From a virus: 27,884 nucleotides of DNA. Position 1 is the stretch's first letter. Each line of letters begins with the position of its first letter. Below the pieces are notes generated by a model. The model made no database searches and was not told the DNA's origin. It saw only the letters and a list, made by a program, of their open reading frames with translations. Location: IMG/VR virus record IMGVR_UViG_3300030328_002028, positions 1-27,884 of that record; one strand, written 5' to 3'. Made by a program: the position numbers and the translations under genes. Shown in pieces: positions 6,996 through 25,600 of this stretch.

Positions 6996-7205
6996 TTAAT
7001 CCATACTCTCATGCGGAGGAGTTGGTAATCCCATATTCTGGGATACTATCCTCGTTACTATCTCATATTCGGCATTTATCTCTTCTACGTCCCTCTTTGA
7101 AGATTCTACAAACTCCAGATATTCCTCATCTGTCATTATCTTCGTCTGCCATTCACGAGTTACCATGTTGAATACTTCATACTCTCTTTTAGGGTTGTTT
7201 TTCAT
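6996..7205 (-). CDS. 69-aa protein, first gene of the leftward module
   Basis: Small acidic protein of unknown function. It begins MKNNPKREYEVFNMVTREWQ, followed by TKIMTDEEYLEFVE. The pattern YEVFN..T.E....MT..E...F......V...Y.IV distantly recalls short FmdB-like phage proteins with a YEF..K.TGEE.....S..E...FL motif. The zinc-binding cysteines of FmdB are absent, so this is only a hint. The ATG at 7203-7205 has a weak ribosome site. It is the promoter-proximal gene of the leftward packaging block and faces the divergent intergenic region. Confidence 0.6.
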   Translation of the reverse strand: MKNNPKREYEVFNMVTREWQTKIMTDEEYLEFVESSKRDVEEINAEYEIVTRIVSQNMGLPTPPHESMD

Positions 7206-7599
7206 AACTTGCTTTAAGTTAATAACAGTAAGTTCATAAATACAACGCTTTATATACGCATTAGTTTCAAGTACTCTTACGAATTTGTAACTAGAATGCG
7301 AGTGAGAGAGACATATTACAAGTACCCCCCTTGGAATCGGGTTGTGCCATCTGTTCTAGGTTGAGTTCAACGGTTGAGTTGGGTTCAATTGAACAGCTCG
7401 GTGTTCGCCTTGCTCACCCGTCTCTATGGCCCACCCGTAGTGACTCTTCGAGCATACCCTGTGTTCATACACTACACTCACACACCCTTGCTCAGGAAGA
7501 GTAACTAATATAAATCCATACAGTACAACAGCGTACTTATGTCTTTATACTTCCTCTATGTATGGCACTTATGCCTTAATATACATAAAGGATAACACT
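7206..7599. other. Divergent intergenic region, candidate control or origin region
   Basis: 394 bases separate the leftward packaging block from the rightward early block, with no credible gene. The part at about 7320-7500 is richer in G+C than its surroundings. It holds a perfect palindrome GTTCAATTGAAC (7383-7394), a related imperfect one GTTGA-GT-TCAAC (7360-7371), two GGTTGAGTT copies (7359-7367 and 7372-7380), two CCTTGCTCA copies (7408-7416 and 7486-7494), two CACCCG and two GTGTTC. The right end has AGGAAG (about 7495-7500) complementary to CTTCCT (7550-7555), enclosing the hairpin AGTAC-AACAGC-GTACT. Such clustered short repeats suit an origin or operator region. No tRNA cloverleaf was found on either strand. 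Confidence 0.45.
7551..7566 (+). promoter_or_regulatory. TTCCTCTATGTAT element, copy a
   Basis: First of nine copies. The sequence is TTCCTCTATGTATGGC and is followed by a short hairpin GGCA-CTTA-TGCC. Over 25 bases it differs from copy b at only two positions. It lies 34 bases upstream of the 79-aa gene start. Likely a phage-specific promoter or RNA-processing signal; which one is not decidable from sequence. Confidence 0.5.
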
Positions 7600-7839
7600 A
7601 TGGAAATACTAAAAGACATCAAAGATATAGTCTTTACTAACAATATATCAGAGCCTATTGTAATGCGATCACCTGCTGGATGGTACATCGGTACCATCTA
7701 CAATGATGATGGACTGATAATGCCAAATGAAAGGCTTACTAGTTATATGTCAAAGGATAATGCTATTGCATTGGAAGAAGTAATCGTTATAAATGATGAT
7801 GGACAAATTTACAATCCAACAAATATTAGAGGAGAATAA
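7600..7839 (+). CDS. 79-aa early protein of unknown function
   Basis: No family recognised. An acidic protein, MEILKDIKDIVFTNNISEPI..., with a likely beta-rich core (VMRSPAGWYIGTIYNDDGLI). I chose the ATG at 7600 because it follows AAAGGAT at good distance. An in-frame ATG at 7558 lies inside repeat element a and would add 14 residues without a ribosome site. It is first of the rightward genes and is closed by a strong terminator. Confidence 0.65.
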   Translation: MEILKDIKDIVFTNNISEPIVMRSPAGWYIGTIYNDDGLIMPNERLTSYMSKDNAIALEEVIVINDDGQIYNPTNIRGE

Positions 7840-7846
7840 AAAATAG

Positions 7847-7871
7847 AGCCCTACTTCGGTAGGGCTTTTTT
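7847..7871 (+). terminator. Rho-independent terminator after the 79-aa gene
   Basis: An 8-bp GC-rich stem AGCCCTAC/GTAGGGCT closed by a UUCG tetraloop is followed by six T residues. This is a textbook intrinsic terminator. The T-tract runs directly into copy b of the TTCCTCTATGTAT element, so termination and the next element share bases. Confidence 0.9.
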
Positions 7872-7885
7872 CCTCTATGTATGGC
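7870..7885 (+). promoter_or_regulatory. TTCCTCTATGTAT element, copy b
   Basis: TTCCTCTATGTATGGC begins in the T-tract of the preceding terminator. It is followed by the hairpin TATGGC-AATTAC-GCCATA at the presumed 5' end of the next message. The 85-aa gene starts 30 bases downstream with AGGAG. Confidence 0.55.
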
Positions 7886-7915
7886 AATTACGCCATATAA
7901 CCATAGGAGAATATT

Positions 7916-8173
7916 ATGTTAAGTAAAGTCAAAGGTATGTTAACAGATACAGCTTGGTTTGCTGTTGGCGTTACAGCCATAGCAGTTGAGAAAAGCTGTG
8001 AAGTTGTCAAAGACATCGCTAGTGAAGTCAAGGATGGTGCACCTCAAGAATATGCCAAATGGGTATATAGAGATACCAAGTACAAATGTCGTAAGATTCA
8101 TGCAAAGTATCATTGTCCTGATAATGAACCATTGCACTTCCATCACGATGGTTGTCCAGCCTGCGATGGCTAG
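7916..8173 (+). CDS. 85-aa protein with His/Cys-rich C-terminus
   Basis: No family recognised. The N-terminal half contains an amphipathic to hydrophobic stretch (TDTAWFAVGVTAIAVEKSCE) that might associate with a membrane. The C-terminal 30 residues are rich in Cys and His: KCRKIHAKYHC, then LHFHHDGCPACDG, a probable metal-binding cluster. The ATG follows AGGAG at good spacing. The gene stands alone between two terminator-plus-element junctions, so it is probably its own transcription unit. Confidence 0.7.
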   Translation: MLSKVKGMLTDTAWFAVGVTAIAVEKSCEVVKDIASEVKDGAPQEYAKWVYRDTKYKCRKIHAKYHCPDNEPLHFHHDGCPACDG

Positions 8174-8180
8174 TAAGATT

Positions 8181-8210
8181 ATAGCCCTGCTGTATAGTGG
8201 GGCTATATTT
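8181..8210 (+). terminator. Probable terminator after the 85-aa gene
   Basis: A 7-bp stem ATAGCCC/GGGCTAT (8181-8187 and 8200-8206) encloses a 12-base loop and is followed by ATTT and then element c. The U-tract is short, so efficiency is uncertain. The arrangement repeats that at 7847. Confidence 0.6.
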
Positions 8211-8224
8211 CCTCTATGTATAAC
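8209..8224 (+). promoter_or_regulatory. TTCCTCTATGTAT element, copy c
   Basis: TTCCTCTATGTATAAC directly follows the hairpin at 8181 and lies 4 bases before the structured leader of the 109-aa gene. Confidence 0.5.
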
Positions 8225-8227
8225 TAA

Positions 8228-8293
8228 CTAGGGAATTATAAACCAACTTGGATAGTGAACCTATCGTAGCACTTACCCAGACTAATTCCCTAG
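8228..8293 (+). ncRNA. Structured 5' leader with 11-bp closing stem
   Basis: CTAGGGAATTA (8228-8238) is perfectly complementary to TAATTCCCTAG (8283-8293). The enclosed 44 bases can form small hairpins: CCAA-C-TTGG (8243-8251), GATAG-TGAAC-CTATC (8251-8265) and GTA-GCACT-TAC. A ribosome site AAGGAG lies just after the closing stem. It could be a cis-acting leader controlling the 109-aa gene or a stability element. It matches no riboswitch class or tRNA that I know. Confidence 0.5.
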
Positions 8294-8314
8294 AAACTAA
8301 TAAAGGAGTCATTA

Positions 8315-8644
8315 ATGAAATTACCTGAAATAGTAAAAAGACCTAATATTCTATCAATAGAAGAACAAAAAGAGTTTCTTGAAAATTGCTCTCTTACTAA
8401 AGAAGATCTAATAGAGCTTGCCTCTATGGAAATGCATACAACAATAGAGCTAAGAAAAGTAAAACGAAGTCTTCTAAGGCAAATAAAAGAACTTTCACAG
8501 ATGAATGGAGAGTTAAGAAGAGAAATTCACGACCTTAATGATAGATACGATGAAGTTACAAAATCTTGGTTTTCTAAACTATTCGTATGGAAAAGAAAGT
8601 TGTTTAAACTTAGCATTAGGAATCCATTTTACATCCAAAGCTAA
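8315..8644 (+). CDS. 109-aa coiled-coil protein of unknown function
   Basis: No family recognised. The start MKLPEIVKRPNILSIEEQKE follows AAGGAG at good distance. Residues ~45-85 (ELRKVKRSLLRQIKELSQMN, then GELRREIHDLNDRYDEV) have heptad-like hydrophobic spacing and high charge, indicating a coiled coil. The C-terminus (WFSKLFVWKRKLFKLS) is basic and aromatic, possibly membrane- or nucleic-acid-associated. It lies alone between structured intergenic elements. Confidence 0.65.
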   Translation: MKLPEIVKRPNILSIEEQKEFLENCSLTKEDLIELASMEMHTTIELRKVKRSLLRQIKELSQMNGELRREIHDLNDRYDEVTKSWFSKLFVWKRKLFKLSIRNPFYIQS

Positions 8645-8648
8645 AACC

Positions 8649-8664
8649 TTCCTCTATGTATAAA
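8649..8664 (+). promoter_or_regulatory. TTCCTCTATGTAT element, copy d
   Basis: TTCCTCTATGTATAAA immediately follows the stop of the 109-aa gene. No gene lies between it and copy e 113 bases further on, so if it is a promoter it transcribes a non-coding RNA. Confidence 0.5.
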
Positions 8665-8779
8665 GTCCCTCTGTAAAATTCCCCATAATTGGGTTGGAGG
8701 GCAAATTTTAGACCTAAAGCATCTTGGTAGCCATACTTTTAAGTTTGAGCGTAAAACCTTGATCCTTTGGTCTATTTTT
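8660..8779 (+). ncRNA. Candidate small non-coding RNA with possible pseudoknot
   Basis: About 120 bases bounded by element d and by a stem with T-tract just before element e; no ORF with a ribosome site is present. CCCTC (8667-8671) pairs with GAGGG (8697-8701), while TAAAATT (8674-8680) pairs with AATTTTA (8704-8710). The order makes an H-type pseudoknot. CCC-ATAATT-GGG (8682-8693) can form inside the second helix. The 3' part is enclosed by TAGACC/GGTCTA (8709-8714 and 8769-8774), extended by AAAG/CTTT past a bulge, then TTTTT (8775-8779). This is promoter-structure-terminator layout. No known RNA family recognised. Confidence 0.45.
8709..8779 (+). terminator. Possible terminator with large loop
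   Basis: TAGACC-T-AAAG pairs with CTTT-GGTCTA (10 bp with one bulged T), followed by TTTTT that merges into element e. The large apical region makes it atypical for an intrinsic terminator. Confidence 0.4.
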
Positions 8780-8793
8780 CCTCTATGTCTAAA
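8778..8793 (+). promoter_or_regulatory. TTCCTCTATGTAT element, copy e
   Basis: TTCCTCTATGTCTAAA, overlapping the T-tract of the stem at 8709-8779, is 27 bases upstream of the 225-aa nuclease-like gene, which has AAGGAG. Confidence 0.5.
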
Positions 8794-8819
8794 CAATCTC
8801 AACAAGGAGTGATCTAACC

Positions 8820-9497
8820 ATGAAAAAGAATGAACTTTCTAAATTAAAAGCTAAACAGCTTAAACAAACAGAGACTGTAAAGTATAAAAAGACTTTTCAA
8901 TCTCTTAACAAAGATGTACCAAACAATAAGCGTAAAGGCGGTAAGCATCAGCCTTATAAATCTACTCGTAAAGAAAATAAAACTGCTATGTCTTATTTAA
9001 ATACTGCTATTATTGGTAAAATAGGAGAAAATAGAGTAGAAAACCATCTACTTGAGAATGGTTATCAAGTATTCAGCCCATCTGCTGATACTTGGGGAAT
9101 TGATTTTGTATGTTTCAAGCCAAAGCTATGGAATAACGAATGGAAAGTCAATTTGATAACAATTCAAGTAAAATACCACACTAGATGTTACAATACTTCA
9201 TTTGGTAAGTCATTAAAAGTGAATTTTACTGAAAATTATGCTGATTGGATTGCAGTACCTATTGACAGAGGATTTGTAGATGATCATGAACATATTATCT
9301 ACTATCCTAATGAAAAGAAAGGTGTTCGTCATGCAAGAGAGTTTTCCTTTAGGGATACCTCAACAATGATGCCTACGCATAAAAAGTATAAGAATCAACA
9401 TCCAAGACGCTGGGCTAAATATTGGTATGATCTACCAACACCTAGACCCAAAGGAGGTTGGGACAAACTGATCAAATCAAAGTTGAAGTTTGATTAA
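8820..9497 (+). CDS. PD-(D/E)XK nuclease-like protein
   Basis: The 225-residue protein starts with a Lys-rich basic tail (residues 1-55), then a domain with the signature of PD-(D/E)XK nucleases. A first helix with IGKIGENRVENHLLENGYQV (E70 or E74 candidate), GIDFVCFKP with D95, and ITIQVKYH with Q116-x-K118 form the D...(E/Q)-x-K active site. The arrangement resembles small group I-type homing nucleases and Holliday-junction-resolvase-like proteins. The C-terminal third is basic and aromatic (HPRRWAKYWYDLP). Likely a DNA endonuclease, whether in recombination, host DNA breakdown or exclusion of competitors is unknown. The ATG follows AAGGAG. It lies alone after element e, and a structured terminator region follows. 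Confidence 0.7.
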   Translation: MKKNELSKLKAKQLKQTETVKYKKTFQSLNKDVPNNKRKGGKHQPYKSTRKENKTAMSYLNTAIIGKIGENRVENHLLENGYQVFSPSADTWGIDFVCFKPKLWNNEWKVNLITIQVKYHTRCYNTSFGKSLKVNFTENYADWIAVPIDRGFVDDHEHIIYYPNEKKGVRHAREFSFRDTSTMMPTHKKYKNQHPRRWAKYWYDLPTPRPKGGWDKLIKSKLKFD

Positions 9498-9506
9498 CAA
9501 CAAACA

Positions 9507-9573
9507 GGGGGGCGTATAACAAGCTACGCTCCCCATTTAACCCTAGTAATCTCGTGTTTACGCTTGTTTTTTT
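9507..9573 (+). terminator. Terminator region with hairpin-loop pseudoknot potential
   Basis: GGGGGGCGTA (9507-9516) pairs with TACGCTCCCC (9525-9534), 10 bp with one G-T pair. The loop bases AACAAGC (9518-9524) are perfectly complementary to GCTTGTT (9562-9568), which is followed by more T residues (9569-9573). Either the loop pairs downstream as an H-type pseudoknot, or the AACAAGC/GCTTGTT stem forms a simple terminator. Confidence 0.55.
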
Positions 9574-9622
9574 CATTATACAACACCATCTTCACCTAAA
9601 CAATAATCAAGCTAAATACAGC

Positions 9623-9638
9623 TTCCTCTATTTATAAA
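9623..9638 (+). promoter_or_regulatory. TTCCTCTAT element, copy f
   Basis: TTCCTCTATTTATAAA, whose first bases are the 3' arm of the hairpin AAGCT-AAATAC-AGCTT (9609-9624). It precedes the structured non-coding stretch 9647-9891 by nine bases. Confidence 0.5.
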
Positions 9639-9646
9639 CATTTATA

Positions 9647-9891
9647 TGGGTAATTCATAAGTGTAAACAATTCCTTGACGATGGGAATAAACACCTGATA
9701 AGTTAAACTACAAATTTCCAATTGTTGGCACAGTTGAAGAACAAGCAATGTACAAATGTATAAGCTTAGAAATTTGTTACATCGGAATATTGTAAAAAAA
9801 ACAACCTTAGTCGTTATTTGCCACGATATTATACAGGTTTAACATTTTCTGCAGATTATGTTATTAACTTGGAGTCCTGTTGAATTACCCA
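9647..9891 (+). ncRNA. Candidate ~245-nt structured non-coding RNA
   Basis: TGGGTAATTCA (9647-9657) and TGAATTACCCA (9881-9891) are perfect 11-bp complements that close the interval. Inside lie GTGT/ACAC with ATTCC/GGAAT (9661-9694), CCAA-TTG-TTGG near 9719, ATGTA-CAAAT/ATTTG-T-TACAT (9748-9782), TCGT/ACGA (9811-9826) and AACAT/ATGTT (9841-9862). Element f starts 24 bases before it, and element g follows by six bases. No ORF has a ribosome site. A closing helix with several internal arms is the shape of a folded RNA. It resembles no family I know; short A+T-rich helices can also arise by chance, but the closing stem is long. Confidence 0.45.
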
Positions 9892-9897
9892 AAAAAC

Positions 9898-9913
9898 TTC
9901 CTCTATTTTTGGA
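9898..9913 (+). promoter_or_regulatory. TTCCTCTAT element, copy g, with 5' hairpin
   Basis: TTCCTCTATTTTTGGA; the hairpin TTTGGAT/ATCCAAA (9908-9914 and 9924-9930) overlaps its end, as at copies a and b. The 112-aa gene starts 44 bases later with AAGGAG. Confidence 0.5.
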
Positions 9914-9957
9914 TGCATTGTGTATCCAAATAATAACCATAAGAAAAGGAGTCAATC

Positions 9958-10296
9958 ATGACTGTTTTAAAGAACATTTTAAAATCATTTTCATCACTTG
10001 CTGATAAAGCACCTGAGAAAGAGTACGAAAATCTCTGGTTACAGCGATCTAAAGAAAATGATGATGGAACATACAGTAATCAAACTACTAGCATTGAAGT
10101 ATTGAAATCAGATACAACTGATGAATTTGTCTACAATGCTTGGGCTAGAGTTACTGAAGAGGGTCTATCAGATATGGATAAATTTGTAGAAGAAGAACTT
10201 ATACCTAATGGGATGAGACTTCTTAGAGATACAAAGTTGCTATCTGCTGATAGTGGTTCCATACGATTCATGATTGCTAGAAACATAGCATCATAA
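9958..10296 (+). CDS. 112-aa early protein of unknown function
   Basis: No family recognised. MTVLKNILKSFSSLADKAPE..., acidic overall, with an amphipathic N-terminal helix followed by mixed helix and strand (TSIEVLKSDTTDEFVYNAW). No cysteine or membrane segment. ATG preceded by AAGGAGT at good distance. It is flanked by element g upstream and a strong terminator downstream, so it is likely a monocistronic unit. Confidence 0.68.
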   Translation: MTVLKNILKSFSSLADKAPEKEYENLWLQRSKENDDGTYSNQTTSIEVLKSDTTDEFVYNAWARVTEEGLSDMDKFVEEELIPNGMRLLRDTKLLSADSGSIRFMIARNIAS

Positions 10297-10302
10297 CTAA
10301 AA

Positions 10303-10333
10303 AGGCACATGGGACATCCTATGTGCTTTTTTT
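10303..10333 (+). terminator. Rho-independent terminator after the 112-aa gene
   Basis: AGGCACAT pairs with ATGTGCTT (6 strong bp, extended by a wobble and A-T pairs) around a 10-base loop and is followed by a run of seven T residues. Clear intrinsic terminator. Confidence 0.88.
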
Positions 10334-10546
10334 ACGCTTCGCTACACTCAGCGGAACAGATTTTTAAAATGTGTTTTACCCAGTATATTTAAAAAAATGG
10401 ACAGTAAAAACAAGATTTGAGCAACAAGACTATTGACTGTAAATGCAGATATTAGTATATTTAACAGCTACAACAAGGAAGATGACAAGACTTTTAAAAA
10501 CAATATTACTTATGGTTAGGTAAAACAAGCTAAGGCTTGTGGATTA

Positions 10547-10583
10547 GGAGGCAGTGTGTAATAGCACTGCTTCCTTTATTTAT
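10547..10583 (+). terminator. Hairpin overlapping element h
   Basis: GGAGGCAGTG (10547-10556) pairs with CACTGCTTCC (10565-10574), 10 bp with one G-T pair, loop of eight, followed by TTTATTTAT. The 3' arm contains the first bases of element h. It may be a weak terminator. An 18-base copy of its 3' arm and tail recurs at 14646. Confidence 0.55.
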
Positions 10584-10586
10584 AAT
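10571..10586 (+). promoter_or_regulatory. TTCCTTTAT element, copy h
   Basis: TTCCTTTATTTATAAT; C-to-T variant of the core. It directly precedes the closed leader of the tiny-gene operon. Confidence 0.45.
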
Positions 10587-10671
10587 ATTGCCTATCTAAC
10601 GCAACAGTTGTTTCGCTCCATTTGATACACTGTGGCTCCGTTACAATCCGTTGGAGTCGGATATAGGCAAT
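10587..10671 (+). ncRNA. Structured 5' leader with 9-bp closing stem
   Basis: ATTGCCTAT (10587-10595) pairs perfectly with ATAGGCAAT (10663-10671). Inside, GGCTCC/GGAGTC (10634-10639 and 10653-10658, one wobble) encloses GTTACAATCCGTT. AAGGAG of the 93-aa gene follows. Same architecture as 8228-8293, with unrelated sequence. Confidence 0.48.
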
Positions 10672-10693
10672 AATTAACAAAAAGGAGTAAGTA

Positions 10694-10975
10694 ATGAAAT
10701 ACTTTACAGACGAACTTGCAGAGGAACTGCAAAAAGAGGCTGATGCTAGGCAAGTACCTATAGAGTCTTTATTAGCAGAAATGGAAATTCCACAAAGCAC
10801 ATTAGATGAAAAGATAAACTATAAACAATATCTGTTTATAAAAAGCATATCTAACTCAGCAGTAAAATATGGACTATTCGGATTGCTAGGCAAAGACTAT
10901 GAAAAAGAGATTAACTTGATTGACGATACGGCAGAAGTGACCAATAGTTGTATAGTAGATCTACTAAATCAATAA
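10694..10975 (+). CDS. 93-aa acidic protein of unknown function
   Basis: No family recognised. MKYFTDELAEELQKEADARQ... is strongly acidic and helical, with a hydrophobic middle (YLFIKSISNSAVKYGLFGLL) too polar to be a sure membrane span. ATG preceded by AAGGAG. First gene of a run of tightly packed small genes (10694-13047) behind element h. Confidence 0.68.
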   Translation: MKYFTDELAEELQKEADARQVPIESLLAEMEIPQSTLDEKINYKQYLFIKSISNSAVKYGLFGLLGKDYEKEINLIDDTAEVTNSCIVDLLNQ

Positions 10976-10991
10976 AGAAAAGGAATAGACA

Positions 10992-11210
10992 ATGGAAGAT
11001 CAACAATTAACATTTAATGAAAATGTTATAAAACAACTAAACAAATACTTAACCAACATGGAATATATAAATTCAGAATTAGATGCATTATGGGATAGAA
11101 TAGATAACCTTAAGGAATCTGTATCAGATATATCTGGAGAAATGGAATATCTAGGAGATGAAATGCGGAAAAAGATAGAAAATTTGAAAGAGGTTGAAAA
11201 TGATAACTGA
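10992..11210 (+). CDS. 72-aa coiled-coil protein
   Basis: No family recognised. Almost the whole chain has heptad spacing and high charge (YINSELDALWDRIDNLKESV, SDISGEMEYLGDEMRKKI), indicating a coiled coil. The ATG follows AAAGGAA after a 16-base gap from the previous stop. Its end overlaps the next gene by 11 bases. Confidence 0.65.
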   Translation: MEDQQLTFNENVIKQLNKYLTNMEYINSELDALWDRIDNLKESVSDISGEMEYLGDEMRKKIENLKEVENDN

Positions 11211-11382
11211 AAATGATATAATGATAGATGACATATCAGATGAAGTATTTGAAAATATAGAACAAGCAATAGATAGAGAGCTTGAATTTATTATGGAAGA
11301 ATACGGATTAAATATAGACATAATAAATCAATTGTATCATGCTTGGTTAATAAAAGAAACAAAGGAAGTAAACAATGAATAA
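11200..11382 (+). CDS. 60-aa acidic protein of unknown function
   Basis: No family recognised. MITENDIMIDDISDEVFENI..., very acidic, probably helical. I chose the ATG at 11200, which has GAGG six bases upstream. A TTG six bases earlier gives a longer frame without better support. It overlaps the genes on both sides (11 and 8 bases). Confidence 0.6.
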   Translation: MITENDIMIDDISDEVFENIEQAIDRELEFIMEEYGLNIDIINQLYHAWLIKETKEVNNE

Positions 11383-11653
11383 AACTACAACATTCGCAAC
11401 TGTCGCAAAAGGAGCAAGTTATTTAGCACTAGCTTTGAATCAGATGTTAAAACTGGCAACTAATGGTGCGAGATTAGCAATTGATTCCTTTGCTGACAGG
11501 AGACGATACAATATAGAACTATTAGTACAAGGTGCAACAATTGAAACTAAAGAAAATCAATCTGGAGCACAATTAAGTAGAATTGTAAGAATAATGGGAG
11601 AGGTTGGTGTAGACCAAGCGATCATAACAGATGTACAAAAGGATAAATCATGA
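11375..11653 (+). CDS. 92-aa protein with hydrophobic N-terminus
   Basis: No family recognised. MNKTTTFATVAKGASYLALA... has a moderately hydrophobic, small-residue N-terminal helix, then a basic region (RLAIDSFADRRRYNIELLVQ). It starts within the last codons of the previous gene, with GGAAG as ribosome site, and overlaps the next small ORF as ATGA. Confidence 0.65.
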   Translation: MNKTTTFATVAKGASYLALALNQMLKLATNGARLAIDSFADRRRYNIELLVQGATIETKENQSGAQLSRIVRIMGEVGVDQAIITDVQKDKS

Positions 11654-11805
11654 TAATACTAGACCTACCAAATTGGATGATCTATATATCATGGTTCATC
11701 TTTGTGAATATGGGAGCAGCTTTCAGTTTGATACTTTGGATGTGGGCATTGAATAAATGGGACATGAGAAAGGAGAAAACTAATGAGTTCAAAAGAATCC
11801 ATTAA
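11650..11805 (+). CDS. 51-aa small membrane protein
   Basis: The ATG overlaps the TGA of the 92-aa gene (ATGA). The 51-residue product has a clear membrane segment rich in W, I and F (NWMIYISWFIFVNMGAAFSL, then ILWMWAL), followed by a charged tail (NKWDMRKEKTNEFKRIH). It runs to TAA at 11803-11805 and overlaps the start of the next gene by 23 bases. Single-pass inner-membrane protein, perhaps holin-like in shape, but no lysis genes are nearby. Function unknown. Confidence 0.62.
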   Translation: MIILDLPNWMIYISWFIFVNMGAAFSLILWMWALNKWDMRKEKTNEFKRIH

Positions 11806-12130
11806 AAGACAATTAATAAAAGAAACAGCACTAAATGATTTAAAACAAGCAAATATGCTGAAAGGAATTGAAAATATGGGAAAAGTAAAAAGTTATTATC
11901 ATAACGAACTTCTATTGGAAAGAGAAAATGATATAAAGACTTTAAACAAAAATAATCAAGAGTTAAATAAATATGTAGCAAAATTAAGGTATGCTTTACT
12001 AGAAGTAAGAACAAACCTTATAGCTGTAAAAGCAGATATGCATGTAAATGTTCTTGAAAACATAGAATCAGCAACTGACAAAATAGACACTTGTCGTGTA
12101 ATCATAAAAGATGTCTTGAACGATGGTTAA
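11783..12130 (+). CDS. 115-aa coiled-coil protein
   Basis: No family recognised. The middle (LERENDIKTLNKNNQELNKY, VAKLRYALLEVRTNLI) shows strong heptad spacing, so a long coiled coil is likely. ATG at 11783 follows AAGGAG. It overlaps neighbours on both sides (23 and 8 bases). Confidence 0.65.
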   Translation: MSSKESIKRQLIKETALNDLKQANMLKGIENMGKVKSYYHNELLLERENDIKTLNKNNQELNKYVAKLRYALLEVRTNLIAVKADMHVNVLENIESATDKIDTCRVIIKDVLNDG

Positions 12131-12332
12131 TAAAATAACACCAGATAAAAGACCAGCATTGGCCTTTGATGATGCAGGCGAAGTAGAGATAATACAAATA
12201 GCATTAAGAACATATAAAAATAAGCAGGAGTTTTACGAGCCTAAACGAAGAGATATGTTTGTTAATAAAATTAACGGAATGCTAGATGAATTAGACAAGG
12301 TAATATTAATGTTTAATAAAAAGGAGAAATAA
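12123..12332 (+). CDS. 69-aa basic protein of unknown function
   Basis: No family recognised. MVNKITPDKRPALAFDDAGE..., mixed charge, helical C-terminus (MLDELDKVILMFNKKEK). The start overlaps the previous stop by eight bases, with a weak ribosome site (GATG context), so coupling is likely. A strong AAGGAG at its end serves the DUF932-like gene. Confidence 0.6.
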   Translation: MVNKITPDKRPALAFDDAGEVEIIQIALRTYKNKQEFYEPKRRDMFVNKINGMLDELDKVILMFNKKEK

Positions 12333-12333
12333 A

Positions 12334-13047
12334 ATGATGTTACTACATTGTGGAGGCCGTGCAGTCAGCTTTGCTGAACTACAAGGCGTTACACTACCAG
12401 AAAAAACAGATACTTACACACCAGTACCATTTGCAGATCTTGTAACAAATGCACAACAGGTAGCAGAAAACCTATTGACAGATTACAATTTTGTCGAAGG
12501 TAAATATGCATTAGCTGGAAAAGACCAGAGAATGTTTGCTACGCTTACATTTGAGGGAGAAGATCCAGATATGATGTTGTCACTTGGTATAAGGTCAAGT
12601 TATGACAAAAGTATGTCAAATGGATATTGCTTTGGTGGAAGTATAACAGTATGTGACAATCTTGTATTCGCAGGAGATTTTGTCATAATGCGTAAACATA
12701 CAAAAAATGTATTTGAAGATCTTCAGAAACAGTTAGTTGGAAGTATATATGACTTTCAAACAGGTTCTAAGTTTCAAAACATTATGGAAGACAGAGAATT
12801 GATGAAAAATATGAATGTCAATACAGATGACGCTTATCAATTCTTAGGAAGAATGTTTGGATACGGAGTACTGAAAGCAAGACAACTAACAACAGCATTG
12901 AATTGTTGGAAAAACCCACCATATGCTGAGTTTCAAGACAAAAACATGTGGTCATTGTATAATGCGTGTACGGAAGCATTGAAGAGCACGCCACCAAATC
13001 ACATTATACAAAAACACATAAAGTTGCACGAATACGCAACTACTTAA
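12334..13047 (+). CDS. DUF932-like (phage/plasmid-type) protein
   Basis: The 237-residue protein carries the core pattern of DUF932: LGIRSSYDKSMSNGYCFGGS (about residues 84-103), then VCDNLVFAGD and MRKHTKNVFEDL. This family (also called phage/plasmid-like protein) is widespread in phages and plasmids, and its biochemical role is not settled. The N-terminus is shorter than in many members, and the C-terminus (NCWKNPPYAEF to the end) fits the family. The ATG follows AAGGAG; a second ATG follows immediately. It is the last gene before a hairpin-containing gap, so it may end a transcription unit. Confidence 0.8.
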   Translation: MMLLHCGGRAVSFAELQGVTLPEKTDTYTPVPFADLVTNAQQVAENLLTDYNFVEGKYALAGKDQRMFATLTFEGEDPDMMLSLGIRSSYDKSMSNGYCFGGSITVCDNLVFAGDFVIMRKHTKNVFEDLQKQLVGSIYDFQTGSKFQNIMEDRELMKNMNVNTDDAYQFLGRMFGYGVLKARQLTTALNCWKNPPYAEFQDKNMWSLYNACTEALKSTPPNHIIQKHIKLHEYATT

Positions 13048-13061
13048 ATAACAACTTAAGT
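13042..13061 (+). other. Short hairpin at the end of the DUF932-like gene
   Basis: ACTTAA-ATAACAAC-TTAAGT, a 6-bp stem that includes the gene's TAA. No T-tract follows. Probably part of the folded 3' end or of the intergenic element immediately downstream. Confidence 0.35.
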
Positions 13062-13068
13062 AAACCAA

Positions 13069-13116
13069 AGCAGGGAACACTAGGCAATATTGCTAGATGA
13101 GCCAACCTTCCCTGCT
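13069..13116 (+). other. Intergenic closing stem, possible terminator or processing hairpin
   Basis: AGCAGGGAA (13069-13077) pairs perfectly with TTCCCTGCT (13108-13116), enclosing small CTAG/CTAG and GGC/GCC pairings. It is followed by GAAGTTTAAATAAT rather than a U-tract. It separates the DUF932-like gene from the next pair. Confidence 0.5.
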
Positions 13117-13143
13117 GAAGTTTAAATAATAAAGGAATAAACA

Positions 13144-13590
13144 ATGGAAACAACAAAAGTAAAAATACAACAAGGAGATGTTTTGTTTAAACAAGTAGAT
13201 CCTGAAGAGTTCAAAAACATGAGAAAAGAAATGGTAAGACAACAAGGTAAGGCTACTTGGAGAAACGACTGGGATATAAAATCTAGAATTTGTCCTGATT
13301 CACCTGATGGTACTAAATGCATAGTTGCATTAGGAGAAGCCACTGGGCATCATCATAGATTCGATACTGCACCAGAAGGAGCAATAGTCACTGCTTATGA
13401 CACTACATCATGGAGAAGTAAAAACAATCCAGCACAATGTGATTTTATTGCAATAGAAAATACAACTGAAGATGTAACTCTTACGCATGAAGAACATAAT
13501 CCAATACAAATACCAGCTGGTTATTACAAAATTGAAATAGTGAGAGAATTTGATCACTTTTCACAACTAGAAAGGAGCGTAGTAGACTAA
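13144..13590 (+). CDS. QGDVL / GHHHRF family protein
   Basis: The 148-residue protein begins METTKVKIQQGDVLFKQV and contains GEATGHHHRF (about residues 63-72), LTHEEHNPIQIPAG and YYKIEIVREFDHFS. I recognise this as the widespread uncharacterised family with QGDVL...GE.TGH.HR......LTHEEH.PI..P.G.Y.....RE. The conserved His and Glu residues look like a metal site on a beta-barrel, but no activity is established to my knowledge. Its TAA overlaps the ATG of the next gene (TAATG). The ATG follows AAAGGAATAA. Confidence 0.7.
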   Translation: METTKVKIQQGDVLFKQVDPEEFKNMRKEMVRQQGKATWRNDWDIKSRICPDSPDGTKCIVALGEATGHHHRFDTAPEGAIVTAYDTTSWRSKNNPAQCDFIAIENTTEDVTLTHEEHNPIQIPAGYYKIEIVREFDHFSQLERSVVD

Positions 13591-14582
13591 TGGCATGGGC
13601 AAATGAAATAGTATACTCTTGGGAAAATAATATTAGACCAAGACATAGTTTATCTAATATGATAAATAACTTTGTAAACTTAAAAACAAATCTACCCCAT
13701 TTTGAAAAAAGATACATAAATGGAAGTAGATATGCTTTATTTTGGGGAAACTCAAAGAAAGTAAATGTAGTATCAGATTGGAACCTGAGAGGTACATATG
13801 ATACAAAACTAGAAAAATCAATACCTTCTAGGGGGATCGATGCTCAAATTAATGTAAAAGACATGGTTATGACTGTCTATGATGCAGGTATACTAGAACA
13901 AGGTTCTAATATATTTGGCACAGATTTTCATGACAATGTACAAACTCATTATCATTACGGAACTGGTAATATCTACGAAGGAACTAAGCATGAAATAAAA
14001 GGTAAGGGTTCTTGGCGTGAGATCGTAACACCAAACAAAAAGAATCAACCTTTCTTTAGTGGAATGAAGTTAGACCTTAATACATTTGCAATACTAAATA
14101 AAGCACCTAAAGACGCTATAGAAACTGCTGAAACTTGGAAAGAAATAACTAGACTAAGAAGAAACGGCAGAAATAGAGCTAGAAATAGGGATTTAAGAGC
14201 ACAAGAAAGACTGCAAAAGTATCAAAATACAGGCGATATAAACCAGTTAGAGATGGAAGATGCTTTTAGATTGTTTAATGTATCCGAAAGAAGAATAGTT
14301 ATAGAAGCTTTTGGAATGGATACAATTCTTGCTAATTGCGAATCTAAAGTATTAGATAAACACGAAGTGGACGGAAGACCTTATGAAGTAGTTGAGGTAA
14401 TGATAGAAGACACAACAACACCTGATGGTGTTCGTGGATGCAATTATCTAAGAATGGTAAATCCTAGTACATCAGAAATCCATTTTGAAGGAATACCTAA
14501 TACCCAAACTAAGGTAACAGGAGCCTTACAATGGAGAGACAATGATGAAAACGGATATGTCAAACCAGTTGTATTAACTTAA
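13590..14582 (+). CDS. DUF6745-like protein, partner of the GHHHRF protein
   Basis: The 330-residue protein shows no motif I recognise in its first 230 residues, which include a His-rich stretch (DNVQTHYHYGTGN). Its C-terminal 100 residues match my recollection of the DUF6745 tail: SERRIVIEAFGMDTILAN, a disposable middle, then CNYLRMVNPSTSEIHFEGIP and a final KVTGALQWRDND...PVVLT. In many bacteria such a domain is found next to a GHHHRF-type gene, as here, and the two overlap as TAATG. This suggests the pair work together, in a role that is unknown. Family assignment is from memory of the pattern and not from a search. Confidence 0.6.
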   Translation: MAWANEIVYSWENNIRPRHSLSNMINNFVNLKTNLPHFEKRYINGSRYALFWGNSKKVNVVSDWNLRGTYDTKLEKSIPSRGIDAQINVKDMVMTVYDAGILEQGSNIFGTDFHDNVQTHYHYGTGNIYEGTKHEIKGKGSWREIVTPNKKNQPFFSGMKLDLNTFAILNKAPKDAIETAETWKEITRLRRNGRNRARNRDLRAQERLQKYQNTGDINQLEMEDAFRLFNVSERRIVIEAFGMDTILANCESKVLDKHEVDGRPYEVVEVMIEDTTTPDGVRGCNYLRMVNPSTSEIHFEGIPNTQTKVTGALQWRDNDENGYVKPVVLT

Positions 14583-14590
14583 TAAATAGT

Positions 14591-14655
14591 GAAGCAGTGT
14601 GATTCCATTTATATAATGGTAGGACTCCGCATCGTCCTTACCCTCGCACTGCTTC
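14591..14655 (+). terminator. Branched hairpin after the DUF6745-like gene
   Basis: GAAGCAGTGTG (14591-14601) pairs with CGCACTGCTTC (14645-14655), 11 bp with one wobble. Inside are CCATT-TATAT-AATGG and AGGAC...GTCCT. CTTTATTTT follows. It resembles a terminator but is branched, and its 3' arm is shared with element i. The 3' arm plus tail is an 18-base duplicate of 10564-10581. Confidence 0.5.
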
Positions 14656-14668
14656 CTTTATTTTCAAC
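14653..14668 (+). promoter_or_regulatory. TTCCTTTAT element, copy i
   Basis: TTCCTTTATTTTCAAC, the last clear copy. It precedes the replication genes: the annealing protein starts 30 bases downstream with AAGGAG. Confidence 0.42.
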
Positions 14669-14697
14669 TTTTATTTTAAACAAACAAAGGAGTTAGA

Positions 14698-15411
14698 ATG
14701 AATAAATTCTATTCAACATTGAGAAATGAAAACTATAAACCATTTGTGGAAACAAAAGGTGGCGGTAAATTCTCAGCTGATTATTTATCTTGGGCAGTAA
14801 TGCATGACTATCTGAAAAAGAACTTTCAGTATGTCAATTACAAGATACATGAATACACAGTAGTAAAAGAAAATGGTACATCGTTAACTGTTCCTTACAT
14901 GTTATTGCCAAATGGAACAGCCATTGTAAAAATAACGCTAACACTTGAAGATAATGATGGAGATAAACATTCACATGAAGAATGTTTGGCTATCAGAAAT
15001 CATTCAATGCAAGCAGCCAGCTCACCAGATTGTGCTCAAGTAGAAAACACAATAAGAAGATGTATAGCAAAAGCTGGTAGTATGCTAACTGGTTTTGGTA
15101 TTGAATTGTGGTTTGGGGAAGACATCAGAGACCTTGACTACAATCCAAATATACCTAATCACGCAGAACTTAGTGCAAATACCAAAGGAGAAGTAAAAAG
15201 CTTACCAAAGGACGCACCTAAGTTAAAAAGATTAGCTAACTCAAAATACTTTAAAGATGCAAAGACAAAGAGTGGAAAAAGCATTGAACAAGGTGTAACT
15301 GCTTGGCTAATGGAGAAAGATAGAACTAACGATGAAGTTCTTGCAAAATACATTGAACTAAAAGACTTAGAAGTAAAGTTCAAAAAAGAAAGTGAAAAGG
15401 AGAGTAAGTAA
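14698..15411 (+). CDS. Single-strand annealing protein, DUF1071 / Sak3-like
   Basis: The 237-residue protein has the DUF1071 pattern: YLSWAVMHDYLKKNF (residues ~29-43), a strand-rich core with PYMLLPNGTAIVKITLTLED, EECLAIRNHSMQAAS, and the helix VENTIRRCIAKAGSMLTGFG then IELWFGEDI. This is the Sak3 branch of the Rad52-like superfamily. Such proteins pair complementary single strands in phage recombination and form rings on single-stranded DNA. The C-terminal ~85 residues are charged and probably flexible, perhaps for partner binding. ATG preceded by AAGGAG. It heads the replication-recombination operon and its stop overlaps the next start (TAATG). Confidence 0.82.
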   Translation: MNKFYSTLRNENYKPFVETKGGGKFSADYLSWAVMHDYLKKNFQYVNYKIHEYTVVKENGTSLTVPYMLLPNGTAIVKITLTLEDNDGDKHSHEECLAIRNHSMQAASSPDCAQVENTIRRCIAKAGSMLTGFGIELWFGEDIRDLDYNPNIPNHAELSANTKGEVKSLPKDAPKLKRLANSKYFKDAKTKSGKSIEQGVTAWLMEKDRTNDEVLAKYIELKDLEVKFKKESEKESK

Positions 15412-15959: not shown

Positions 15960-15961
15960 TC

Positions 15962-18033: not shown

Positions 18034-18034
18034 A

Positions 18035-18068
18035 AATAGGGCGCAGATTACTTTATTTGTGCCCTATT
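18035..18068 (+). terminator. Hairpin after the primase-helicase gene
   Basis: AATAGGGC (18035-18042) pairs with GCCCTATT (18061-18068), extended by GCA/TGT with one wobble, around a loop containing ACTTTATTT, which resembles the core of elements h and i. No T-tract follows, so it may be an RNA-stability or processing hairpin rather than a terminator. Confidence 0.45.
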
Positions 18069-19628: not shown

Positions 19629-19652
19629 GGCTTCCGTCCTATCTTTTTTTTT
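19623..19652. terminator. Bidirectional terminator between convergent blocks
   Basis: AGATAGG (19623-19629) pairs with CCTATCT (19638-19644), then T x9 on the plus strand. On the minus strand the same stem is followed by CTCTTTTTC. It stops both the rightward block and the giant leftward gene, whose stop lies at 19651-19653. Confidence 0.88.
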
Positions 19653-22600
19653 AATCTCCTAAGAACTCTTCTATGTCCTCTAATTGCATTTGTTGCTTCT
19701 TAGCTCTTTCTATTCTGCTCTTCATTTGATTATAAGGGATTCTAAAGAGTATCTCTGGTGCTCTTTCTAAACCTCTAAAAGGTCTATCATCAGCTAACTG
19801 CTTGATTTGCCTTACACCACGACCAAATGGAAACATTGTATATGCAGTATAATTGGTAAAATCTTCCCATTGACCAGTCAATAATTCACCAAAAGCTTCT
19901 GGTACTCTAGCTATAGGTGGCTTGAGTACATTAAGTGGGCCAAGCTTTGAGCCAAAGAAAGCCATTTCTTTTTCTCTCTTATCACCAAAAGTATAATCAG
20001 CTAAAGCTTGAACCCAGTCCCAAGGTGGAGGCAATGTAGTATCAAACAGGCTAAACATGAATGCACCACCTAATGCATACATCATCATGTCTATAGCAAA
20101 AGTATCTTTATATCTTTCATAGGATTCACTACCTGCCTTGAATCCATTTAATTTTGCTTGTCTATAAAATTCTTTACGCATTCTAATGCTATTGAATACA
20201 AATAACTTGAATCTACCTAGAACTTTACCCATAGAAGTCCTCATAAAAGCTGGTCTATGAGCATTTTGATATAAGAACTGAGTCATTTCTATACCACGCT
20301 CTGCCCTTTCAAATACATATTGATCAGCTAAGGATAAATCCTTACCAGCTCCTTTAAAACTTTCAACAGCTTGTAGACCATGAGCTATAAAAGCATTCAA
20401 GCGATTAACTCTTTCAGATTGCTTCATGAGAAAACCACCAGTCTTCATCATTAGATCTTTTACACCATAACGATTAACAACATCCATAACATTTTCATCA
20501 CGATTACCTTTCTTGCTCTTAGCAGCTTTAATAAGGTCTCTTTGAAAATCTTTGATATTGACACCAGTTTTCTTTAATCCACTGGTCATGGTCTCATTAT
20601 ATTCAAATTCATTTTTAATAAAGTTATCAATAACACCACGCTCTTCTAGGAATGTCAATAATTCTTTCCTATTAGTAACTTTTGTACCATCTAATAGTTT
20701 TAATACAGCATTACCTTTAGCATCACTTAACAAAACATCATAAACACGTTTGTTATTGAAAGTGTTTGCATAATTCTTAATACCTGCACTACCAACAGTC
20801 ATAGTAGCACCACCAAATATATTTGTTGTCCATGTGCCTGTATTTGCCAGTAAACTCAATAACTCATACTGAGCTTCCATTCTTCCGAGATTGTGGATTT
20901 TGCGGCTAAAATACTCCTTTCTAGCTACAGGGTCTTTAGGTATTGCTTTGTTATTAAAGAAAGGTATGCTTCTTTTCTTTCCTAGCTTACTTTGATAGAG
21001 CTTTTCCATCTTATTTATGATAGCTTGGTCTGATGTACCATAATACATATTCTTCTTATTCAAATGAAGTAGTTGCCTACCTTGAGGAGTAGACATTCTA
21101 TCACTTAAAAAAGATTGGTGTCCTAATGAGTCTCTAGCATAAAGCCTTACATAATCAGCCCATACATCTAAATAATTCTTATATCTAAGCTCATTGGGTA
21201 TTCCACCAGATTCTACTGTGGTATCTTTTATACCCTTATATAAGTTTTTAAAAACCTTTTGCTCGTGCTTATTAGGCTTATAATCCTTATTGTTCTTCAT
21301 CATAAGGTCTATTTCATTCTGCGCTTTAAGTTTCATCAAATTCTTATGATAACCATTTATAACATTATTCTGGTAATCACTAATAACATCATATGACCTT
21401 TTAAAAGGCATTTGACCTTGTGTTTCAAAAACATTTGCACGCAAATTATTAAAATTAGGATCAGAGGTAGTCTTCATAGGAGCGTTAGGGTCGATACTTA
21501 ATACATCATTTGCATTGATGAATTGATTATCTGCCTGCATTAACCTTGCAGCTTCTTCTCGTTGTTCCTTAGGTAGACTAGCAATATACTTAGCTTGCTC
21601 TACAAGTAAACCTTCAGGAGCATTATTAAAAGAGTGATGCATATATTTATTATAATCACGTGGTTGAAATATCTTAGGCTGTTTATCTGCCCTTTTCTTC
21701 TCTCGGTACTCTTTTTCGTTCTTAGGCTTGTTGATACGTAAAGATTTTTCTATAGCTTGTTCGTGTTGATACCTAAGTACTCCCTCTATCCCCACCTTTT
21801 TGATGATGTCTTGTGATTGATTTCTAGCGTTCAAAACCTTATCATGAAACAATTTAAAATCCATACGACCATCCTTGTCGTACTTTATAAACTCATTTAT
21901 CTGACCATACTCTTTATCTTTATCTATCTTACTCCAATCAAAACGATTTCCATTCATATCTTTTGTTGTAAGCCAAGAGTTTTCCATCTTCTGCCAAAAC
22001 TTTGTCATCTCTGCATCAAGTTCCATGAATTTCTTCATGTTTATCTTCTTATCTACATTTTCAATGGTAAAAGAAACACCGTCTTTATCAATTCCTTCTC
22101 TGTAATTAAATAGGTTCTCCATGTAAAGTTTCTTTTCTGTCCTAGAAAGTGTGTTTATAATAGAATCTAATTTAGTAGTTTCTAAATTCATTCTACCTTG
22201 ATAGAGATTAATACTAGCTTCCATTTTTTTAAAATAATTAGCTATGTTACCAACAGGAGACATAATAACCTTTACATCACGCCTAACAGTACCTTTGCTT
22301 GTCTCTACTGGTACATTTAATATCTTATGATAGCCACCAAATAAACCTTTAGCTTGCATGACCTCATCAACAGTTAATGGATGTTGATAAAACTGAGCAA
22401 GTTTTAATTCCATATCTTTATTGCTATTCAAACTATCTATATATCTATTTACTAACTTAATGTCTTTCAGTTTTATAGTAGTAGCATCTTGAGGTTTGTT
22501 CAATACATTAGTAGTAAAACCAGTATACCACTCATTAAAATCTCTATTCATAACAGAATTGTTATTCAAAAGTTCTTGAAACTTGCGTATCTCACGTAAA

Positions 22601-25600
22601 TCTGATTCAAATAAAGCTAAGTTCTCTAACTTCTTATCTAATATAGCATCATTAATATTATTAGATAATTCTTTCTCCTTTACTAAAGGCGAATCTTTAA
22701 GGATGTTCTTAACATCAGCTTCTTTTATTTTAATCATACCATCTTCAGCTTTTACTCTGTCGTAAATAGTATCCATACGCTTATAAAAATCTCTTTTAGC
22801 TTGCATAGGAACCATATTAGAGGCATGAATAGACTTATAATATTGAGGCTGATTCTTGCCTTGCGGAGTTAAAGCTTTAATAGGACTTAATAACCAATAA
22901 TGGAAATAATCTTGTAACATACCTTCAGGTAATTTTTGCTGTACCTCTAGCTTAGCCAAACCTTTACGAGTGCTATGTATCAATGTATCAAGACTTTGAT
23001 TAGTTACATTATCTCTAGCTTTGTCTTGACCTAACTTAGATGCTAATTCTTTTACCTTATAAGCCCTTGTCTTTATCTTTGGGACTAGATCTTTAACTAC
23101 ATTAACAGAGCGACCTTGCTTGGTAATTTCATTATGCATCTTAACATATTGGTCTGTTAATAATTCCATTGTAGCGTATTGACCAAGTTCCTTACCAATA
23201 AAATCCAAAGCTATTTCTGGATTTGTTTGAAACATCTTATCAATTTGCTTAGGAGTAGCAAATGATAGTTCTTCTGATATTATCTTATAAAAATCCTCTA
23301 ACTGTTTAGACATTTTATTATTACGTAATTCAAAACGCCCAATAACGTTTTTATAAAAACCATCAGCTCCTAACATAGTTTCATATAGCTTTCTATGAAC
23401 TTCTTGGAGGTCTTTGAACTTGTAATTATTTGCTTCAAAACCTTTTTCCTGCATAAGTTTATTCAATGCAGCGGTAGCTATATCAGTACCTATTTCATTC
23501 TCTAAAGTCCTATTGACCTTTGAAACATTTTCCAATACTTCAAATATACTAGGGGAATAAGCATTACCCGATTGGTCATATAATTTTTGATGTGGTTTAA
23601 TATTATTACCAGCATCTATTATAGACTCTAAAGATGTATTTTTTATGGTCTTGGTAAATTCACTATATTTACTAATTTTACCACCATCTACTTCAAAAGC
23701 AGAATTAAATAACATGTCTCTAAATTTATTATAACCTATAAGATTGGGATCATTACTAGCATCGGCAGATACATTGACTATCTTAGTCCCTAAATCTAAA
23801 AAATACCTATGGGCATCTACACCTTCGTAAGGAGAGTTTTCTTTTAATCTGATCTTTATCTTATTCGAGTTGTTTCTACCATCTTGGTACTCTACTGTCC
23901 CACCATTAGCTTGAATAAAATCATACATATTCTGCATAGAAACTTTAGCAGATAAACCATACCCAAGTCCTTGCTTACTAGTGCTAGAATTTCTAGCTAC
24001 TTTAAATCTAAAAGATGGAGAGAACATCATTGTTTTATTATCCATAAAATCTTTTACAGTAATTTCAGGAGTAGCAGCTTGGAATAATTCATCTAATTTT
24101 TCAGAATACTCAGAGGGTTTTCCCTTACTGTTAAACCAATGCTTTCTTTCATTAGCATTTTTACTGTAATGCTTTATAAGGTCTTTAGGCATACCTTGAA
24201 ATATCTTTATACTATCAATATCCTTGTCGGCTCCACCGAGGTAGGCATTGTCCTTATCGTGGGTAAAAGATCCAGTTCCTTTCTGATTTGTAAATCCTCT
24301 AAAACGCAACTTACGTGTTCCAGAGATAGAATCAGCAGGAGTACGAATAGCAAGCATTGTAAAAACCTGATCCCATTCTTTTTGAGTTGGCTTTTTAACA
24401 CCTGTAGGCATGGTTGCTTTCCCAGTATACATGTCCCAAACTTCGCCAAGAGTGTATCGTTCACCGAACAATACCACAGGCATTTTGCGAAAACCGTTGT
24501 CAAGATATATTTCCCCCTCTTTCAAAGTTCTTGGAGACCATTCATTAATAAGCTTAACTAGTCGAACTGCATGGCTATCTTTTGCTTCAGGTTTAAAATA
24601 ACCTAGGGGTCTACCAGATAATTTTCCAGATCTAATATCGTTTAATATTCCATCTCTTTTATCTGGCATATATCCTTTGTCAGTTTTACCCCTTAACCAA
24701 CTTTCGTATCTTTCTATAGCTTCTTTTGTGCTCCCAGCTCTTATAAATCCTTTATTTTTATAATAAGATGGACTCTTATCGTAAACAGAGGGTATGATAA
24801 AAGGGTTTCCATACTTAGAGCCCCTCATTATATTTATAGAATTTGCTGAATCAGGCTTTACTATAGTGGTTTGAGTAATAGAATAAGGATCTATATCTGC
24901 ATAATTAAGCATCTCAGGTCTAAATCCTTTCAGTATAGATTTACCACCTGTTTCAATATGAGGATTAGCAAACGATTTTAATACATACTTACGTAATGCA
25001 TTGAAGTAATTCTTTTTATTAAAACCCATGCTATGTTTAGCAACAAACGTACCACGTAAAGCTTCAGCCAATACTCTATTGCTGTCATGGAATTGAGAAA
25101 AAGCAGCATCTGAATCAAATTCAAATGATTCATGCATAGCTTTATCTAGCTTACCTTCCATATCTAATCTCATTAATCTGTCGGATATAAGCTTACCCAT
25201 AGGTGTATCAGCTTTATTTAATAATGTGTCTATAACAAAATCAAAAGGAAGTTCTTCTAAACGAATATTCTCATCTTTGTATTTCTGAGCAAATGCATCT
25301 ATATCATTAGTCTTTTGAAATTCCTTAATAAGGTTTCTACCAGCTTGTGTTCCTTCTAAAGATGGCTTAACAACATTTTCTATGTATTCTTTAGAATAGC
25401 CTTTAGCTTGCTGGTTATTAGCCTGTCCCCAAAATTGGATAGGTAAGGAAGCTCCCTTAGTATCTTTAAAAGTATTTTCATATGTGCCAGAGCTTATTTG
25501 TAATGTATCTATAGGAATCTCAAGGACATTTAAATTATCTGATTCATACTTACCATCTTTATATTCTAACTTACTTAATTGATTAGAACCTCTAAGCTTT

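Follow-up and report, generated by a model that had tools for sequence, protein, structure and literature searches.

A fifteen-base element before the early genes of an uncultured marine phage is a probable promoter of a polymerase encoded in a giant late protein

Introduction

The virion RNA polymerase of phage N4 is a T7-like enzyme whose promoter is read as a hairpin. For the crAss-like Cellulophaga phage phi14:2, the protein gp66 has been reported to drive rifampicin-resistant early transcription (PMC10136315). In the P23-45 group one conserved motif lies upstream of the pre-early start sites, and it is found only in those relatives that carry the fused polymerase (PMC10770324). The early promoters of the phiKZ and AR9 virion polymerases consist of a single short motif of ~10 nucleotides (nt) upstream of the early operons, near position -10, which was first found by inspection of the genomes and was confirmed later (PMC7598289). 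Here we describe a 15-base element that occurs nine times on the early strand of an uncultured marine phage, IMG/VR record IMGVR_UViG_3300030328_002028, the whole of which (27,884 bases) is referred to as the window. On computational grounds we consider it likely that this element is the promoter of a phage-encoded RNA polymerase that is injected into the host. No paper on this marine phage group or on the motif was found in the literature searched.

Results

Nine copies of the element lie on the early strand

Family searches identified a P22-like portal and a Terminase_6C large terminase in the window. The late arm is on the minus strand (genes up to 7205, together with 19651-27884) and the early arm on the plus strand (7600-19628). 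The genes at 6996-7205 and 7600-7839 diverge, and the first copy of the element, a, sits in the gap between them; an automatic gene caller had labelled this copy tandem because of a spurious small open reading frame. All nine copies listed in the first-pass annotation were present, on the plus strand and in noncoding DNA, as follows:

7551..7565, plus strand: element a, TTCCTCTATGTAT followed by GG, in the divergent gap; predicted +1 at 7564
7870..7884, plus strand: element b, TTCCTCTATGTAT followed by GG; predicted +1 at 7883
8209..8223, plus strand: element c, TTCCTCTATGTAT followed by AA; predicted +1 at 8222
8649..8663, plus strand: element d, upstream hairpin absent, structured RNA downstream; predicted +1 at 8662
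8778..8792, plus strand: element e, TTCCTCTATGTCT followed by AA; predicted +1 at 8791
9623..9637, plus strand: element f, ahead of the structured RNA at 9636-9897; predicted +1 at 9636
9898..9912, plus strand: element g, TTCCTCTATTTTT followed by GG; predicted +1 at 9911
10571..10585, plus strand: element h, TTCCTTTATTTAT followed by AA; predicted +1 at 10584
14653..14667, plus strand: element i, TTCCTTTATTTTC followed by AA, the weakest copy; predicted +1 at 14666

The regular expression TTCC[CT][CT]TATN[CT][ACT][TC][AG] matched exactly nine times in the whole window and had no match on the minus strand, and a second-order Markov model of the same noncoding DNA gave an expectation of 0.023 matches, with a maximum of 1 in 2000 simulations. 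Allowing up to three mismatches to the 15-mer gave 12 matches where 2.25 were expected, and no shuffle gave as many as 12. Copies a and b were identical at 23 of 25 bases, as had been noted. The claim that the copies usually continue as TATAA applied exactly to four of them, the others reading TATGG (two copies), TCTAA, TTTGG and TTTCAA (one each); it was steadier that position 13 is T (C in copy i) and position 14 a purine. Among the closely packed genes from 10694 to 14582 there was no element.

An exact scan of IMG/VR with the 15-mer found it in 71 contigs, of which five had more than one copy, all from the clade of the window. In the matched contigs that lacked a multi-copy array, taken as unrelated, only 6 further relaxed matches were present in 575 kb (~0.1 per 10 kb). 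Dozens of related marine phage contigs contain the element, and in relatives that carry the terminase gene 90 relaxed copies lay antisense to that gene and 3 in the same sense. Element a was kept at the same place in L009, L011, L017, L115 and L128, and in many genomes the copies in divergent gaps were typically 18-60 nt upstream of the next gene and often at least 300 nt from the gene behind. The frequency of the motif inside genes and in unrelated DNA, a comparison proposed in the first-pass annotation, was determined, and the motif proved to be noncoding, on the early strand and rare elsewhere. As with the early promoters of virion polymerases, a single conserved short motif is found before the early genes and on the early strand.

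The small early genes whose borders the elements mark vary in content between relatives, and the elements stay at the borders. This would suit asymmetric repressor or operator sites at gene junctions (mycobacteriophage L5 has such sites, the stoperators), or a linker at which cassettes recombine, as would the single orientation of the copies and the short gaps in which they sit. No integrase or repressor was noticed in the window, in which no systematic search for them was made, and such sites would explain neither the register of the hairpins at position 14 nor the fixed short distance to the Shine-Dalgarno sequence described below, so we regard this explanation as barely credible.

The element predicts a start at position 14

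Geometry was analysed in 63 distinct copies, collected with an expression that permits only a pyrimidine at position 11, T at position 13 and a purine at position 14. Position 11 was T in 61 of the 63 and position 12 was A, C or T; position 14 was A in 32 copies and G in 31; these counts are in part a product of the expression. A scan of all copies for hairpins starting near the element gave a weak peak at position 14 (8 against 2.3), and a clear signal emerged after the copies were split by the base at that position: of the 18 copies with GG at positions 14 and 15, 14 had a hairpin whose first base is exactly position 14 (after shuffling, a mean of 2.6 and a maximum of 8). The stems of these hairpins differ (GGCA/TGCC, GGAT/ATCC and GGTATAGC/GCTATATC). 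Three of the GG copies in the window have such a hairpin:

7564..7575, plus strand: 5'-terminal hairpin GGCActtaTGCC, beginning exactly on the predicted +1 of element a
7883..7894, plus strand: 5'-terminal hairpin GGCaattacGCC, on the predicted +1 of element b
9911..9927, plus strand: 5'-terminal hairpin GGATgcattgtgtATCC, on the predicted +1 of element g

From this geometry we infer that the RNA starts at the purine at position 14, that is, TTCCTCTATGTAT and then two purines. Where the spacing is tightest, the Shine-Dalgarno sequence starts 4 nt past position 13 and the start codon lies 14-15 nt past it. To include its Shine-Dalgarno sequence, a transcript must therefore start no later than the end of the element, and such an early start fits a promoter spanning -13 to +2, not a sigma-70 -10 box.

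This bears directly on the idea that the element is a promoter of the host RNA polymerase, whether that enzyme is directed by a sigma factor of host or phage origin or is modified by the phage. The TATAA of some copies does look like a -10 box, and the late genes require some polymerase, but if TATAA were read in that way the leader would be removed. The arrangement expected of a host sigma-70 promoter, a -10 box with a start ~7 nt downstream and a -35 box, was not found: a conserved -35 box was absent and sigma-70-like sites were at the level of shuffled DNA (34 against 32.1), with no enrichment. A host promoter thus seems very unlikely, and the first-pass suggestion of a modified host polymerase fits poorly with these results.

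Terminators are frequent neighbours of the element

The remark that most copies follow a terminator or hairpin was clearly right at 7870, 8209 and 10571, where the following structures are present:

7845..7868, plus strand: terminator hairpin with T-run, abutting element b
8180..8207, plus strand: terminator-like hairpin, abutting element c
10546..10575, plus strand: terminator hairpin, its 3' arm overlapping the TTCC of element h

The copies at 8778 and 14653 come after structured RNA, and those at 7551, 8649, 9623 and 9898 have no strong abutting hairpin. Over the 63 copies a strong hairpin abutted 21 (shuffled mean 0.7), as would be seen if the element were mainly a termination signal of a phage polymerase or of the host enzyme, a hairpin with a T-rich tail ending each early unit. 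In G037 and G040 (L303-L308) the resemblance goes further, as the 3' arm of a hairpin is made by the 5' half of the element, with a T-run coming next (GGGAGA...TCTCCCTTTTTTATGA), such that the terminator and the presumed promoter overlap fully; the terminators of the P23-45 virion RNA polymerase, moreover, carry a 26-nt motif (PMC10770324). However, 40 of the 63 copies have no upstream hairpin worth scoring, and termination thus appears to be a frequent neighbour of the element and not a constant part of it. Copies in divergent gaps, typically 18-60 nt before the first gene, have no unit behind them to end, the classic terminator after the gene ending at 10296 lacks the element, and a terminator tail needs neither the conserved TATNTNTRR nor a hairpin beginning at position 14. 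We consider it unlikely that termination is the main role of the element.

A nuclease of host or phage that cuts a longer early transcript at the element, so that the 5' hairpins remain, is compatible with the sequence, as the first-pass annotation had proposed, since a cut would also make position 14 the 5' end and the register of the hairpins agrees. Several copies, however, are directly behind strong terminators, so that RNA from upstream would seldom arrive at them, and a copy in a divergent gap would require another promoter close upstream. Processing would also leave unexplained the presence of a polymerase in genomes with no other visible repeated early motif. We therefore hold a processing site to be distinctly improbable. 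A promoter for a phage RNA polymerase, the remaining option of the first-pass annotation, is strongly favoured by the presence of a polymerase in the same genome, by the genome-specific versions of the element and by the geometry at position 14.

A giant late protein carries a putative two-barrel RNA polymerase

Family searches recognised no RNA polymerase in the window or in the related records of 40-47 kb, and PF00940 (T7-like polymerase) had no match in 29 related records, in which the control also matched nowhere. A candidate came from the giant protein at the end of the late arm:

19651..27884, minus strand: giant protein gene with the predicted two-barrel RNA polymerase; N-terminus cut by the contig end
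23083..26535, minus strand: polymerase region, as aligned and modelled for the window
25672..25731, minus strand: first-barrel stretch KPVIAAKTANGFFATKSNGQ, with two of the invariant lysines of the family
24328..24348, minus strand: IRTPADS, the R-x-P part of the beta'-type barrel signature
24214..24228, minus strand: DKDID, the DxDxD catalytic aspartate triad

In three relatives the protein is 2,656-2,826 residues long, and its sharp conservation is confined to a single block, IRTPADSxSGTRxLRFRGF...GSxTHxKDxxYLGGADKDxDSIKIFQ. R-x-P...SGxR...GG-x-DxDxD was invariant in 15 near homologues, and GGxDxDxD was present in all 79 wider IMG/VR homologues, a count for which the motif had picked the reading frame and had been one of the two patterns used to search the collection. 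An alignment of 55 sequences contained 17 invariant residues, including K265, K280, K309, R629, P631, D668, D670 and D672 (the lysines being numbered as in L180:604-3780). Judged from their order in the chain, K265, K280 and K309 would be the conserved lysines of the first barrel and, with R-x-P and DxDxD in the second, they give the arrangement of a two-barrel RNA polymerase. A DTDG site (about residue 614 of the window protein from the ATG) was considered as a catalytic candidate and dropped, as it is not conserved. A polymerase of the N4/T7 type was also considered for the giant protein; the catalytic motifs of that type were not found.

Sequence searches with the giant protein against PDB chains returned nothing of use, and a tblastn search for relatives of the polymerase had no match in 50,697 phage records. 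AlphaFold2 modelling of the stretch from the window itself, from 14 sequences and with a DUF4326-like insert, gave a mean predicted local distance difference test score (pLDDT) of 61 and a poor second barrel; a Foldseek search of the PDB with this model had 6VR4, the phi14:2 virion polymerase, as its sole significant match (E=6.4e-5). The homologue from G027 (L180), a genome in which the TTCC[CT][CT]TAT core occurs ten times, is 81% identical to that of the window. Its model, built from 55 sequences, was a confident one, with a pLDDT of 88.3 and a predicted template modelling score of 0.86. With this model Foldseek again placed 6VR4 first (E=6.0e-12), followed by QDE-1 (1e-6), RDR2, P74-26 gp62 and cellular polymerases; nearly all of the ranked matches were RNA polymerases, including P23-45-type enzymes. 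VIA-align superposed the model on 6VR4 over 742 residues at 4.9 A (Z 13.2), and among the named top matches in BFVD most came from crAss-like phages. Beyond DxDxD the model has a helix of 37 residues (733-769), a candidate for the bridge helix by its place in the chain. On the basis of the catalytic signature and of the matches of the L180 model to 6VR4, QDE-1 and P23-45-type enzymes, the giant protein is predicted to contain a two-barrel, cellular-type, single-chain RNA polymerase.

The DUF4326-like domain is inserted between the barrels (window 24601-24849, minus strand); it is present in the window and G007 and absent in G015 and G011. Two homologues of the polymerase give possible hints of the host: L338, in a Flavobacteriaceae metagenome-assembled genome (57% in the best segment), and L339, in a 46,061-base contig from the Prochlorococcus single cell AG-436-M02 (29%).

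Related genomes carry drifted versions of the element

Most of the polymerase-bearing relatives hold a genome-specific version of the element at their early junctions, with scores well above those of shuffled DNA. These were found de novo by expectation maximisation with a Markov background and hard caps, earlier runs having drifted to poly-T and to the Shine-Dalgarno sequence:

G031: TTCCTTTATNTNTGG
G022 and G033: CTTCCTTTATTTCTG
G011: CTCCCCTATTTTTAG
G009: TTTCTATATTTATAG
G044: CTCCTTTATGTATAG
G040: GCTCTCCCTTTTTTA, also given as TCTCCCTTTTTTATGA
G046: CTCTTTTTTTATGTT

Motif and polymerase drift in parallel (the motif reads TCTCCCTTTTTTATGA in G040, CTCCTTTATGTATAG in G044 and TTCCTCTATGTATAA in the window), as expected for a recognition pair, which is support for recognition and not proof of it. 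A few copies resembling TCTTTTTTATCTTTGA were seen by eye in G023 and G024. In the clade of G015 and G019 (L050, L067 and L053, early strand) a different sequence, AACGTAGGAGTTA, is repeated around start codons and represents a strongly conserved extended Shine-Dalgarno sequence.

Other features of the window

Neither a tRNA nor a transfer-messenger RNA was found in the window, and there was no Rfam match at the gathering threshold. Between elements f and g (9636-9897, plus strand) lies a structured RNA of ~260 nt with the terminal stem GGGTAATTCA/TGAATTACCC and a folding z-score of -3.1, and the element contexts that flank it recur in L115 and L128; we take it to be a probable noncoding RNA of the early arm, transcribed from a promoter of its own. 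Directly before element i (14590-14661, plus strand) is a structured leader with a conserved GACTCCGCAT core and a CAGTG/CACTG closing stem; the core is also present in L011, L017, L023 and L050, and it belongs to no Rfam family at the gathering threshold. In the late arm (852-2055, minus strand) three successive proteins have similar C-terminal tails, NPFTKDLPQGETMIPEDFR, NPFTKDLPQGDTMGTGDFR and FTKGLPKGDTITVKHFK, which are perhaps a common assembly or packaging tag.

Discussion

The scheme that we favour is one in which the giant polymerase protein, of about 2,700-2,800 residues, is part of the virion and is injected together with the DNA. The polymerase would then read TTCC(T/C)(C/T)TATNT(A/C/T)T and begin RNA at the purine at position 14, the element thus covering about -13 to +2. 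A separate copy would serve each early gene, small group of genes or structured RNA, and in about one third of cases it would be joined directly to the intrinsic terminator that ends the unit before, the two forming a compact stop-start mark. Hairpins at +1 may protect some of the messages, and the late genes, which are on the opposite strand and have no element, would presumably be transcribed by the host enzyme. The computations show the repeat with its bias in strand and position and its conservation, and the two-barrel polymerase fold with its catalytic signature; the exact start base is a prediction. That this polymerase recognises this element is suggested by their occurrence in the same genomes, and that the giant protein is packaged and injected is probable by analogy.

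Several points weigh against this scheme. About a third of the copies abut a terminator hairpin and in G037 and G040 the two overlap, so termination could explain part of the conservation. In four polymerase-bearing genomes (G024, G036, G045 and G051) the automatic search detected no significant motif. The parallel drift of motif and polymerase is not independent proof of recognition, because the whole genome is inherited together. A comparison by hhalign with phi14:2 gp66, which used sequence profiles only, was not significant (E=0.31), and what the models indicate is therefore a likeness to the crAss-type virion polymerase and not established membership of its family. Finally, the location in the virion is argued from the position of the gene in the late arm, the giant size of the protein and the precedents of phi14:2, P23-45 and N4.

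On balance we lean slightly towards a broader picture, in which a large uncultured marine lineage has fused two-barrel virion polymerases whose promoters have drifted in each lineage, each early gene or small RNA being a unit of its own that is often bounded by a terminator-promoter mark. Promoters of two-barrel phage polymerases are known for few phages only, and in this genome family candidate promoter copies are available by the dozen, with the first base of the RNA predicted and with both polymerase and motif diverged among its lineages, so that promoter recognition by the class becomes testable in vitro from sequence alone. The candidate cognate pairs of polymerase and promoter, a natural set if the proposal is true, are possible laboratory tools. 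The results also suggest how uncultured marine phages with no other recognised RNA polymerase gene may begin their infection program.

Compared with known systems, the predicted polymerase resembles phi14:2 gp66 in being a two-barrel single-chain enzyme with DxDxD, located in a giant protein among the late genes. The two differ in that there is no significant similarity of sequence, and the genomes described here are of ~40-47 kb, with a P22-like portal and no recognised DNA polymerase; no such element was present in the intergenic gaps of phi14:2 that were checked. As in P23-45 gp96, the polymerase is fused to a giant protein, which in P23-45 is the tape measure of the virion and here is probably also a virion protein. 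Here the fusion partner is a different one, the motif is pyrimidine-rich with TTCC and TATNT whereas the P23-45 promoters are AT-rich, and no second phage polymerase was seen. The enzymes of the jumbo phages phiKZ and AR9 are multisubunit, and the element described here, at about -13 to +2, is nearer to the predicted start than their motif. With N4 the proposal shares a giant injected polymerase for the early genes; it differs in the two-barrel fold and in that a promoter hairpin is not part of every copy, the majority having no scoring hairpin upstream. What is new is the polymerase, which has no named relative among the 50,697 phage records, and the combination of a two-barrel virion polymerase with an early promoter is of a kind that is already known.

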